DNA from: a virus
Reading direction: 5' to 3' (one strand)
IMG/VR virus record: IMGVR_UViG_3300043823_000478
Coordinates: 1 to 25,719 of that record
DNA: 25,719 bases
How positions within the stretch are numbered: the stretch's first letter is position 1; the number at the start of each line of letters is the position of its first letter. The notes under the pieces are model-generated. The model ran no database searches, was not told the origin of the DNA, and was given only the letters and a program-made list of their open reading frames with translations. Shown piece after piece: positions 7,431 to 20,687 of the stretch. The position numbers and the translations under genes were made by a program.

Positions 7431-9223
7431 GAGTATTTTAAGTTGAGATTTAATCGGCGTCCTAGGTTGGCCTCTCTAAGTTTTGAAAACGCAGCCCTCT
7501 GCTTGACCTGAATAGAGGTCTCCCGGCGTTTCAATTGTACAGTCATACCGCCGAATCCAAACCGCTGACGGCACAGCTCAATCAAGATCATCGCGGCATC
7601 GGCCAAGTCAGGGCTCTCTCCGGTTCGGGCCTTCATGTCAACTTTAGTTTCTACCACCATCCTTAAGCCCACCCCCTTTTGGGTAGTATACTTTCTATTG
7701 CACATTTCCTTGGCCAGCTCGCGGTCGATCCCTTTGAGCTGTCCGGTACGGATAAGTTCTTTGGCCCCGAACCACAGCTCGGTGACGCGGTTGACATACC
7801 GGTCACTGGACAACGTAGTGTCAGATATAGACACCGGTAAATCACTGGCCTTTCCACCAAACTGCACTCCCAAAACCTCGGGTGACCACATCATGGACAC
7901 TACGTCCCCAAACGGACCGCCTGCTCCGGACTTGTCGAACGCAGCGCAAAAAGGCTCCACGCCTTCTTCCTCGCACAGTTGCCGGTACTGCTGGACAATC
8001 TGCTCGGTACGGGTCTTCTTTTTGTTGGTCACGTCGTCCTGAAGCAACTGCCGGTGGGTGTACATGAGGGTGGGGATTCCGTCTCGGGACATGCCGAAAA
8101 GCCCGAACTGTACTGGCGTGCGGTCACCCCCGTTGGTGAATGCGGGGTCGAGCGCGGCAACCTTCGTGGGCGGTTCAATCCAAATGGCGTCCTGGTCCGC
8201 ACCCGCTGTGATGATTTCCGTCTCGGAATAGATGTTGTCATCCTCGCCGGTAGGGGCCCAGTAGCCTCGGAACATTCGATAGTATGCCAATGAATTCTCA
8301 CCGAATCGTGCCTTGGCCTCGTCCAGCTTGGCCTGAGTCACAATCCAGGGGTAAATGAGTTTCCGGGTCAGGACATTCGGGCTCTTCTCGCCGTCGAAGC
8401 GAATGCACAGCCCGCGTTCGGTCTCCCACTCGTCTTCCAAGGGACTGATCGACTGCCAGCCGTTTTTGGGTTTTGCCAAAATGCCGAATGCGTCAAACCG
8501 GGATGCAGGGTTGCCGATGCCGATGAACTGGAACTCGGGGTTGAGCGAGAGGTTGGACGCGGATGCTTCCAAAATGCTTTCGGAGAGTTCGGGCATTTCG
8601 TCAGCGATGACGATCACGCGCTGATTTTTAAATCCGATCAGTTTGCCCACGGCCTCCTTTTCTTTTTTCTTTTCAGCCGCAATCAACGTCAGCCCGCATT
8701 TGTCCGAAGTCCCTCCGGTGCCGTCGTCAAAACGGATGAGGCCCATTGAGTCCACGAGCTTGCCGGGCAGTGGCGGTGCCGCTTGCCAATAATCTCGAAT
8801 CGAGCCCCAGATACGCTTGCGGCTGTCTTTTAGCGTGGTGGAAGTGACGAGCACCATCGTATCGGCTGGGGCGCATATGAAGTTAACAATCGCCCAGAGA
8901 GCAAACGCGTCGGTTTTCCCGCTCGAAGCACAGCCAGCCACGGCAAGGTACTGATTCTCGCACGCGGCTTCAATCATGCGCTCCGCCCAGGGATGGCGCA
9001 CAAATGGCTTCGGCCCATCTTCAGGCCAAAGCGCAGAGACGATTCGCCAAAAATGTTCAGCTTTGTCCAGCCCGCCTTTCTCCACGGCCACCGGGTTGCG
9101 GAAGCTGTAAAGTTCTCGGTTGAACTGGTCGATGGATTTCTTCCACCAACGTCCGTACTGGTACTCTTTGTCGGACACATCGACGACGCGACCGTCCGAA
9201 GTTTTTAGCAATCTTTTTTCCAT
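7427..9223 (-). CDS. terL: Terminase large subunit
   Basis: The product has 598 residues and is the ATP-driven packaging motor and nuclease. The ATPase domain shows a P-loop (GCASSGKTD, 97-105) and a Walker B with adjacent Glu (VIVIADE, 203-209). The FIGIGNP segment (233-239) fits the coupling region. The RNase H-like nuclease domain supplies three acidic clusters: D359 (ALDPAF), D430 (AAFDKSG) and D539/D542 (SPDLADA). No small terminase is recognisable in the window; it may be outside or unannotatable by eye. The start at 9223 lacks a Shine-Dalgarno sequence and lies beside an integrase arm-type repeat. A promoter at 9347-9375 reads toward it. Confidence 0.93.
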   Translation of the reverse strand: MEKRLLKTSDGRVVDVSDKEYQYGRWWKKSIDQFNRELYSFRNPVAVEKGGLDKAEHFWRIVSALWPEDGPKPFVRHPWAERMIEAACENQYLAVAGCASSGKTDAFALWAIVNFICAPADTMVLVTSTTLKDSRKRIWGSIRDYWQAAPPLPGKLVDSMGLIRFDDGTGGTSDKCGLTLIAAEKKKEKEAVGKLIGFKNQRVIVIADEMPELSESILEASASNLSLNPEFQFIGIGNPASRFDAFGILAKPKNGWQSISPLEDEWETERGLCIRFDGEKSPNVLTRKLIYPWIVTQAKLDEAKARFGENSLAYYRMFRGYWAPTGEDDNIYSETEIITAGADQDAIWIEPPTKVAALDPAFTNGGDRTPVQFGLFGMSRDGIPTLMYTHRQLLQDDVTNKKKTRTEQIVQQYRQLCEEEGVEPFCAAFDKSGAGGPFGDVVSMMWSPEVLGVQFGGKASDLPVSISDTTLSSDRYVNRVTELWFGAKELIRTGQLKGIDRELAKEMCNRKYTTQKGVGLRMVVETKVDMKARTGESPDLADAAMILIELCRQRFGFGGMTVQLKRRETSIQVKQRAAFSKLREANLGRRLNLNLKYS

Positions 9224-18005: not shown

Positions 18006-18007
18006 TA

Positions 18008-18759
18008 TGGCCTCGATCACATTCAATCCAAAAGGTGGTGCGGTAGCACCGGCACCCACCGACGAAACCCCGAAGAACGTGACCCTTGAGGTCGCGGCTC
18101 CTCAGAACCAGAGCATTGCTGTCAGCAAGGCACCGGCTCCTACGGGCAACATCACTCGGGACGACATCAACCTGCCCCGAGTTAATCTCGTGCAGAAGAG
18201 CGGAAAGCTCTGCGACGATTTCACTCCGGGATCTTTCCTGTTTGAAAAGCAGGTGGTGCTCGCAAAGCCAGGCGATTCGTTCAACGCGGTTGTGCTGGGA
18301 CACTCCAAGTATTACCAGGAGAAGGTCGAGTACGGCTCCGTTGAGTTTGGTCGCCGCGCAAACTCCGAAGAGGAAGTTCGTAACCTTGGTGGTACTACTA
18401 CCTGGGGTGTCACTGACAAGCCCTACTTCCAGCCCGTCGCCGATCTGCTGCTCGCAGTGAAGGCTCCCGCTGAGACCGAAGGAGATGTGCTCGATCTCTT
18501 CCCCTACCAGTACGGGGACGATCACTACACCATCGCAGTCTATACGGTCGCCGCATCCGCCTACACCTCGCTCGCAAAGCGTGTGTTCACGGACAGCCTC
18601 TACACGCTCAAAGCTGGTCTTCACCTCGGTGAGTACCAGATCCACAGCGAGCTGAAAAAGAACGCTGCAAACTCTTGGTACATTCCGGTTGCCGGGATGC
18701 CCAAGAAGTACAACGACGATGCGAAGGCTGAGTTCTTCGCGGGTCTACGCAGCAACTAA
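18008..18759 (+). CDS. Replication-module protein of unknown fold, possible ssDNA-binding protein
   Basis: The product has 250 residues. The frame is open further upstream to 17857, but that part overlaps the previous gene, and the ATG at 18008 follows its stop by two bases. Residues 1-50 are low-complexity Pro/Ala-rich; 51-250 are ordered (INLPRVNLVQKSGKLCDDF, GDSFNAVVLGHSKYYQEKVEYG, HYTIAVYTVAASAYTSLAKR). In many temperate phages the slot between a DUF2800-type nuclease and polA is held by a DUF2815-like ssDNA-binding protein. I infer a similar job from position, without a motif to prove it. Confidence 0.75.
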
Positions 18760-18767
18760 ACCACTCT

Positions 18768-18880
18768 GGAGTCCTTGAGAGAGTAGGAGCTGCGGGAGAT
18801 CCGCAGACCGAGGAACGTGGCATCCCGATGATGGTCCGGACCCACATTATTTCCTCTAGGTGATCACTCTCAGGGATTCC
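18768..18880 (+). ncRNA. Candidate structured RNA upstream of the polymerase gene
   Basis: The 137-base gap holds no reading frame but folds cleanly by eye. A 14-bp closing helix pairs 768-781 with 867-880 (last three digits; two G-U pairs). Inside are a perfect hairpin, CTGCGG/CCGCAG (18790-18806), and a second helix, GAGGAA/TTCCTC (18810-18815 with 18851-18856). That helix encloses GTGG/CCAC (18817-18820 with 18842-18845) and further small pairings. This is a three-way junction. A cis-regulatory leader, a ribozyme or a small RNA are possible. I cannot match it to a known class. Confidence 0.5.
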
Positions 18881-18896: not shown

Positions 18897-20687
18897 ATGC
18901 CCATCGCAGCCGTAGACTTTGAAACTTTTTATAGTGATGAAATCAGCATCACCACCCTCGGCGTTTACAACTATTTACAAAAAACCGACATCTACCTCGT
19001 CAGTATTGCCACTGACACGGGGCTCGAATTTGTCGGTCATCCGAAAGACTTCGACTGGAGTCAAATTGCAGGCCCTGATTGGACGTGGGTCGCGCACAAC
19101 ACTGGCTTTGACATGGGAGTCTTCATGCGGCTTCAAGAACTCGGCGTTGGCAATACGCAATCGGTTACCGAGATTAAAGACTGGCACGACACGGCAGACT
19201 TGACTGCATACCTGGGGTACCCGCGCTCACTGAAAGAGGCGAGCAAGTACCTGCTGGGCCTTGAGATCTCCAAAGACACCCGAGACAAGATGAAGGGTAA
19301 GGCTTGGGAGTCCATGACCCCCGCTTTTCGTGCAGAGGTTGAGGCTTACGCTCTCAAAGACGCTGAAAACTGCCTGAATATCTGGATTCAGCACGGTGAC
19401 AAGATGCCAGAACACGAACGGGAAATCAGCCGTTTAACCCGTGAAATGGCTTTTCGGGGCGTCCCAATCGACGCTGAAGGGCTTGAAAACGACATCGTTA
19501 AGCTCGAAACGGACCTTTGGAGGCTTCGTTCCAGTATTCCTTGGAGGGACGAGCCTCACCGGGACAATGCGAGAGCGAATCGTGGCGAGAAGATGGCGAT
19601 CCTATCCCCGATCGCCATTCGTGAGGAGTGCCTCAAGGTAGGCATCATTGCTCCGGCTTCTTTCGCCAAGGATGACCCAGGAGCTGAGGAATTTTTCGAG
19701 AAATATGCCGATACCTACCCTTGGGTCGGGGCTGTGCGTGATTATCGTCGGGCAACCAAGCACCTGGCCACGCTCAAGAGCATGAAAGCTCGTATGCGTC
19801 CGGACGGATGGATGCCCTACGGCTTAAAATACTTCGGGGCCCACACCGGACGCGACTCCGGCGACACCGGGCTCAACCTACAGAACCTGCCTAAAGGAAT
19901 TGTTGCCGGTGTGGACGTACGATCCAAGATCTGCGCTCCCGAGGGCTATACATTGGCTATCGTCGATCTCTCGCAGATCGAACCGCGCTGCCTGCACTGG
20001 CTTGCGGAAGACGAGACCACGCTCCAGTACATCCGTGAGATCCCCGATCTCTACGAAGCGCAGGCACGGGCCTGGGGAATCTGGGATGAGCCGGGATCGA
20101 TGAAGAAAGTTGCACCCGACATTCGTCACATGATGAAGCAGTTAGCACTTGGTCTCGGTTATGGTATGGGCGCGAAGAAGTTTGCGGACGTTGCTGACAT
20201 GACCGTGGAGGAGGCTACGCGGCTTACGACGCTCTACCGGTCCAAGAACCCAAAGATCGTCAAGCTGTGGAAGAAACTGGAGGCAGGCTTAAAGAGAGCC
20301 GCCTGCACTCCAGAGAAAACTTTCAAGATGGTTCTGCCGTCGGGACGTGCCCTGAACTATAGGACGGTCGAGGACGGAGACAAGCTGTCCGCTTCGATCC
20401 CACGTGCCGGAAAGCTCATGCAGATAGGTATCTGGGGAGGAGTCCTAACGGAAAATCTCGTCCAGGCAACGGCACGCGAGGTCTTCATGCACCAGTGCGC
20501 GGAGATCGAGAAAGCCGGAATACCTGTGCTGATGCGAGTCCATGACGAAGCAGTCTGCCTAGTTCCCGAAGATCAAGCCGAGCAGAAGCTCGCCGAGATC
20601 ACCCGGATCATGTCCACCGCTCCGGAGTGGGGTGGGGGACTGCCACTGTCCGCCGAAGGTTCCCTATCCAAAGTCTACAAGAAATAA
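18897..20687 (+). CDS. Family A DNA polymerase with 3'-5' exonuclease
   Basis: The product has 596 residues, shorter than bacterial Pol I because it lacks the 5' nuclease domain. The proofreading domain has the full DEDDy set: D7 and E9 (DFET), D72 (GFDMGVF), Y151 and D155 (YALKDAEN). Polymerase motif A is IVDLSQIEPR (D357), motif B runs R410-K414-L418-Y422 (RHMMKQLALGLGYG), and motif C is HDE (549-551). Position 418 corresponds to E. coli Phe762 and is Leu here. It is the phage replicative polymerase. The start lacks a Shine-Dalgarno sequence, and a structured RNA lies just upstream. Confidence 0.95.
   Translation: MPIAAVDFETFYSDEISITTLGVYNYLQKTDIYLVSIATDTGLEFVGHPKDFDWSQIAGPDWTWVAHNTGFDMGVFMRLQELGVGNTQSVTEIKDWHDTADLTAYLGYPRSLKEASKYLLGLEISKDTRDKMKGKAWESMTPAFRAEVEAYALKDAENCLNIWIQHGDKMPEHEREISRLTREMAFRGVPIDAEGLENDIVKLETDLWRLRSSIPWRDEPHRDNARANRGEKMAILSPIAIREECLKVGIIAPASFAKDDPGAEEFFEKYADTYPWVGAVRDYRRATKHLATLKSMKARMRPDGWMPYGLKYFGAHTGRDSGDTGLNLQNLPKGIVAGVDVRSKICAPEGYTLAIVDLSQIEPRCLHWLAEDETTLQYIREIPDLYEAQARAWGIWDEPGSMKKVAPDIRHMMKQLALGLGYGMGAKKFADVADMTVEEATRLTTLYRSKNPKIVKLWKKLEAGLKRAACTPEKTFKMVLPSGRALNYRTVEDGDKLSASIPRAGKLMQIGIWGGVLTENLVQATAREVFMHQCAEIEKAGIPVLMRVHDEAVCLVPEDQAEQKLAEITRIMSTAPEWGGGLPLSAEGSLSKVYKK

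Follow-up and report, generated by a model that had tools for sequence, protein, structure and literature searches.

What occupies the gap in front of the polymerase gene of this phage, and what might it do there? The window analysed here is a whole 25.7-kb IMG/VR virus record (25,719 nt), in which 137 bases separate the stop of a 250-residue gene (18759) from the ATG of polA (18897). The original prediction drew a 14-bp closing stem (P1), a perfect 6-bp hairpin (P2) and a third helix (P3) in this gap, and all three are present in the sequence (Table 1). Folding reproduced the claimed three-way junction: the minimum free energy and centroid structures agree with one another and match the earlier drawing, and at -50.6 kcal/mol the element is far more stable than its dinucleotide shuffles (-36.25 ± 3.5 kcal/mol; z -4.1), 1 in 200 of which equals it. 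The third helix was borne out in part, as only its outer 4 bp are conserved in relatives whereas the inner stem varies. The length of the gap had also been set against gaps of 0-40 bases elsewhere in the operon. This comparison could not be confirmed because the starts of the open reading frames are uncertain; with the start conserved in relatives (18007), the 250-residue gene itself begins 237 bases past its neighbour's stop.

The upstream gene may encode a Gp2.5-like single-stranded DNA-binding protein (SSB), judged by gene order: Fusobacterium phage phiPaco carries an exonuclease, a Gp2.5-like SSB and polA in an order matching that of the window. Between positions 9000 and 25719 the gene leaders are pyrimidine- or A-rich and carry no Shine-Dalgarno motifs, which suggests a host for which they are dispensable; since the genes of the window generally lack such a motif, its absence before polA is not special.

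Table 1 Positions in the window of the junction RNA, its parts and the flanking genes
Feature	Position	Strand	Evidence
Three-way-junction RNA element, entire	18768-18880	+	Fold z -4.1; covariance model scores R1 117.7, R2 78.8, R3 70.1 bits
P1 5′ strand, 14-bp closing stem	18768-18781	+	Covariation at 9/14 pairs (close relatives), 14/14 (68 sequences)
J1/2, AGUAGGAG, conserved nUAG(n)AG	18782-18789	+	G/U covariation; extension variants GG:CC, GC:GC, GA:UC
P2 hairpin, 6 bp, GAGAU pentaloop (family consensus GARAn)	18790-18806	+	97% of cells paired; 6/6 pairs double-changed
ACC: conserved A, then 3′ side of P2 extension	18807-18809	+	68-sequence alignment; extension variants
P3 5′ strand, GAGG	18810-18813	+	4/4 pairs covary; 91% paired
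P3 interior, variable	18814-18852	+	No family-wide conservation; relatives differ in length
P3 3′ strand, CCUC	18853-18856	+	68-sequence alignment
J3/1, UAGGUGAUCA; family consensus nnnUUGAWCA, W = U18864	18857-18866	+	W covaries with J1/2
P1 3′ strand, then pyrimidine tract UCCCUUUUCCC	18867-18880	+	Sequence; covariation in close relatives
250-aa upstream gene	18007-18759	+	No Pfam or PHROG match; start 18007 conserved in relatives
Family A DNA polymerase (polA), 596 aa, downstream gene	18897-20687	+	Pfam DNA_pol_A 1.7e-26; PHROG DNA polymerase 5.7e-88

Conservation of the fold in related phages

Close relatives were collected by searching viral contigs with polA and the upstream gene (polA identity 77-79%). 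For the original prediction, an unrelated sequence upstream of polA in such phages would have been a refutation; in all of them the element has stayed in this gap despite diverged sequence, and the compensatory changes that it had called for were found, with 15 of 27 pairs changed on both sides. In the alignment of five close phages 99.3% of cells are paired, the covariation score is 0.619 (0.268 when shuffled and at most 0.141 when slid), and RNAalifold, unprompted, returns exactly the same 27 pairs. A covariance model built from these five sequences (R1) matched the same site in a phage absent from the model (L012, polA identity 65%; E 1.6e-9) and gave no further match in the other records searched. 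In L013 this site holds a plain hairpin only.

Protein-alignment searches yielded a wider polA set of more than 100 loci, in which about 25 distinct phages carry the element in the gap before polA, sharing its core but differing in the sequences of the helices. Three others (L120, L124, L126) have a plain GC hairpin in place of the three-way junction within the last 60 bases before polA, and far relatives (polA identity about 41%, for example L041 and L097) have an intrinsic-terminator-like hairpin directly before the gene instead. The element is not bound to one neighbour, because an extra gene intervenes between it and polA in some phages (L034, L127, L128, L149) and between the upstream gene and the element in others (L130, L132, L147, L165). 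About 700 extra bases lie between element and polA in L034/L116, with a reading frame that looks homing-endonuclease-like by eye.

A phage-specific RNA family absent from Rfam

Searching 50,697 phage records by blastn with the element or with two short consensus cores gave no usable match, and relatives were therefore sought through proteins, patterns and covariance models. In two pattern scans of viral contigs the core bases were fixed and the pairing of the helices was left free. At least 144 matches were returned; among the matches listed, 86 of 144 form at least five of the six P2 pairs, a level expected by chance in about 3% for unrelated letters. A second covariance model (R2), trained on 17 sequences from polA-type phages only, also matches copies that the patterns had located elsewhere, with E-values down to 8.6e-13, and revealed further copies in tandem in L189, L206, L230 and L304. 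These arrays hold two or three copies, which in L304 stand one base apart. The same model located two copies in phage record G033: the first precedes the start of a DUF2800-like nuclease (assigned from its first residues), and the second follows a RuvC-like gene. It also placed a copy ahead of an exonuclease-like gene (PHROG DNA repair exonuclease) on a contig binned with a Rickettsiales metagenome-assembled genome. A third model (R3), trained on 68 sequences, found copies outside its training set at 36-61 bits (L313/L326, L322, L327, L372, L373, L379, L381); in L327, the uncultured phage AP013544.1, the element lies 6 bases before the RNA polymerase gene.

IMG/VR phages have so far yielded more than 60 distinct copies that form the structure, with one to three copies per phage in whole-record searches. 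At about 80-115 nt, members of the family are short enough to be studied by routine transcription in vitro, by probing and by crystallography. The 773 bacterial genomes sampled (385 + 388) gave one match, the Rickettsiales-binned contig, which is probably phage DNA, and a host chromosomal origin was rejected on this count. The cultured pelagiphages HTVC105P and Eistla and the uncultured MedDCM-OCT-S35-C6 do not carry the element.

The RNA had been described as undescribed-looking, and the comparison with Rfam agrees: the 4227 models of Rfam 15 gave no match at the gathering threshold in the window and 18 loci, and at permissive E-values the window gap and 14 family-bearing loci gave sub-threshold matches only. 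A literature search, with subscription papers outside its reach, found no description of the element. We conclude that the window element is almost certainly one member of a large family of structured RNAs that is specific to phages and absent from Rfam, apparently a widespread phage RNA device so far undescribed. The RNA class may be categorically new, and its function may yet prove to be of a known kind. To our knowledge, RNA classes equally common, conserved and poor in relatives are rare, and earlier ones have been riboswitches, ribozymes or regulatory RNAs. Here a nearly phage-exclusive RNA stands at core growth genes, namely those for DNA polymerase, RNA polymerase, resolvase, nucleases, terminase and tRNAs.

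Conserved core and junction contact

The family core runs in the order P1; nUAG(n)AG; a 6-bp P2 with a GARAn loop; A(n)C; P3; UUGAWCA; P1′, with a J2/3 of 0-1 nt. P1, P2, P3 and an extension of P2 all covary. Across the 68 sequences P1 is 93.9% paired, P2 97% and P3 91%, double changes occur at nearly every pair, and the covariation score is 0.762 against 0.185 when shuffled and at most 0.130 when slid; this alignment was fitted to the model, and the independent pattern-based counts therefore weigh more. Beyond an AG/A internal loop P2 continues for one or two pairs, in the window through G18786-G18787 pairing with C18808-C18809, and the extension types are nothing/C (48), G/CC (14), A/UC (2) and C/GC (1). 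An inner RCC:GGY helix extending P3 was rejected as a family feature, being paired in 65%; its bases are explained instead by the P2 extension.

The base before UAG in J1/2 and the W of GAWCA in J3/1 change together. Among 53 matches to an unconstrained pattern in which P1 and P2 form as well, G occurs with GAUCA in 6 of 6 and a non-G base with GAACA in 47 of 47 (p 4e-8, the relatives not being independent events), whereas the control, 50 matches to this pattern that lack P2, shows no G/U link (p 0.76). The G-U type is present in several unrelated lineages (L122, L128, L189, L192, L303 and the window), the window carrying G18783 with GAUCA in agreement with the rule. This covariation supports a tertiary contact between J1/2 and J3/1 that would hold the conserved nUAG/GAWCA core, with G18783 and U18864 as the putative partners in the window. 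On the sense strand G-U cells outnumber A-C cells by 32 to 3 in P1 and by 27 to 13 in P2, so that selection acts on RNA of the coding sense.

Genomic setting and possible function

Copies sit tightly between co-directional genes. The genes that follow are polA, a T7-type RNA polymerase (PHROG 6e-206), the Holliday junction resolvase RuvC, nucleases or exonuclease-like genes, terminase, portal and tRNA genes, and many of those with an assigned function belong to DNA metabolism. Four copies precede phage tRNA genes, with gaps of 1-13 nt in L197, L314 and L325; the end of P1 abuts tRNA-Ile in L314, and tRNA-Asn lies 4 bases on in L197. Promoter-like hexamers (at least 8 of 12 matches, reached at 4.7% of random positions) end 3-15 bases before P1 in 10 of 54 copies, where about 2.5 are expected; host-type promoters precede the RNA polymerase gene in L220 and L262, so that the element would stand at the 5′ end of the mRNA there. 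Possible start codons fall inside P1′ in about seven copies, and inside it or no more than 15 nt away in 21 of 60. In L195, L288 and L290 translation of a RuvC-like resolvase probably starts at a codon inside the 3′ strand of P1, and P1 and translation start would therefore compete. A U-rich tract follows P1 in 7 of 54 copies (1.9 expected), and a pyrimidine-rich tract follows it in 19 of 34 descriptor matches from polA-type phages. Unlike most copies, those in L231 and L271 have a strong hairpin directly after the element, which is terminator-like in L231 and overlaps the end of P1 in L271.

Control of polymerase expression, as first proposed, is unsupported as a general function, and a polA-only role was rejected: the same RNA is also found ahead of genes for RNA polymerase, RuvC, nuclease, terminase and portal, and of tRNA genes. 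Control specific to polA is further made doubtful by the lack of a detectable strand-exchange platform on the 3′ side. The other early suggestion, a free-standing small RNA, is unlikely here, the element nearly filling the gap between two co-directional genes. What fits best is neither a strand-exchange metabolite switch nor polA-specific control. Our preferred explanation overall, in which belief and doubt are evenly balanced, is that the window RNA is a member of the phage-specific family and a cis-acting boundary or protection module. The fold, the sense strand, the conserved core, the tertiary covariation and the location are shown; for the mode of action we tentatively propose a self-contained module that sets a boundary for the RNA that follows or protects its 5′ end. 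Such a module would sit in leaders and between genes, ahead of an mRNA or a tRNA. The closed P1 and folded core could act as a cleavage or processing point, with the RNA cutting itself or being recognised by a nuclease or some other protein; alternatively, they could block decay. In the window phage the polA message would be uncoupled from that of the upstream 250-residue gene. Against this, the start codons inside P1′ suggest translational control in some phages, the U or pyrimidine tract after P1 suggests termination in a subset, and copies at probable transcript 5′ ends leave little role for a cleavage site upstream of P1.

Of the alternatives, the one that survives best, though we hold it improbable, is a cis-regulatory aptamer or protein operator, in which a ligand or a phage or host protein would stabilise the junction and P1 and thereby block the start codon or aid termination. 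The polA ATG 16 nt 3′ of P1 in the window, the start codons in or near P1′ elsewhere, the tandem copies, the U-tracts of a subset and the many DNA-metabolism genes downstream all suit such a device. A riboswitch whose strands exchange 3′ of the element was rejected, however, as downstream complement to P1′ is at the chance level (14.8% against 13.4% in shuffles; 54 copies, 3′ side only) and so offers no alternative strand on that side. Moreover, copies before tRNA genes cannot be translational control, and the downstream genes look too varied for a single metabolite. Purine-type riboswitches have the same P1/P2/P3 junction with conserved joining strands, but the element has no Rfam match or detected 3′ expression platform and is nearly confined to phages. 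The DUF2800 RNA motif, predicted to be cis-regulatory, lies ahead of DUF2800/DUF2815 genes, chiefly in Bacillota, and shares the exonuclease/SSB/polA gene cluster with the element; it gave no Rfam match in the window or 14 family loci, its model being assumed to be in the Rfam set, and four DUF2800-bearing phages had neither an above-threshold Rfam match nor the element.

We consider unlikely a new class of self-cleaving ribozyme that has the nUAG/GAWCA junction as its active site, separates cistrons and trims leaders or tRNA precursors. No Rfam ribozyme family matches, some copies lie at probable transcript starts, and a cleavage site is not inferable from the sequence; yet the RNA is a self-contained domain whose junction nucleotides are fixed while its helices covary freely, is indifferent to gene function, occurs in tRNA arrays and tandem copies, and shows no expression platform on the 3′ side examined. 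Small phage self-cleaving ribozymes (hammerhead, twister, twister sister, pistol, hatchet) are likewise compact junction RNAs with conserved cores beside unrelated genes. The hammerhead core consists of CUGANGA and GAAA around three stems, which the J1/2 nUAG(n)AG, the 0-1-nt J2/3 and the J3/1 UUGAWCA of the element do not fit, and no Rfam hammerhead match was found in the window or loci searched. RNase III sites of T7-like phages are intercistronic hairpins, also found before the RNA polymerase gene; they are intercistronic like the element but lack a conserved three-way-junction core. Pistol ribozymes often occur near phage genes (PMC6154101). Were the ribozyme account true, a widespread new class of catalytic RNA would serve as portable punctuation between genes and in tRNA arrays, and we put only a small probability on such a self-cleaving phage RNA, independent of host nucleases.

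Less probable still is a transcription element: the RNA would be a folded terminator or attenuator ahead of polA, or would act on RNA polymerase as an antitermination RNA of the put kind. Sister phages (L120, L124, L126 and L041 type) bear plain GC hairpins or intrinsic terminators before polA, U-tracts are enriched after P1, and tRNA arrays and intercistronic sites are places where antitermination would help. But 47 of 54 copies lack a U-tract, on which ground a terminator was rejected as the general function, and a terminator needs neither a conserved junction nor a tertiary contact. Given the frequent pyrimidine tract in polA-type copies and the terminators of their sisters, attenuation may be added there. 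HK022 put and lambda nut-boxB are phage leader RNAs, and boxB has a GNRA-like pentaloop; the leader setting and, in P2, such a pentaloop are shared by the element, but the architecture is different. Single-sequence folding alone (z -4.1) is weak evidence of real structure, but a chance fold in an ordinary spacer is refuted by the covariation and the held-out model matches and keeps a negligible probability.

A second conserved structured RNA, GGUAAUGCGGCGGC...GCUGGUUAAUCAUCCGCC...GGGUAACCGCAUAAAAGCCC, was observed before polA in more distant marine phages (L046, L054, L056, L062, L064, L070, L091, L092, L099), without an Rfam match in L062. This RNA stands some 120 bases ahead of polA, near locus position 2866-2960, and has a consensus fold of -15.5 kcal/mol.
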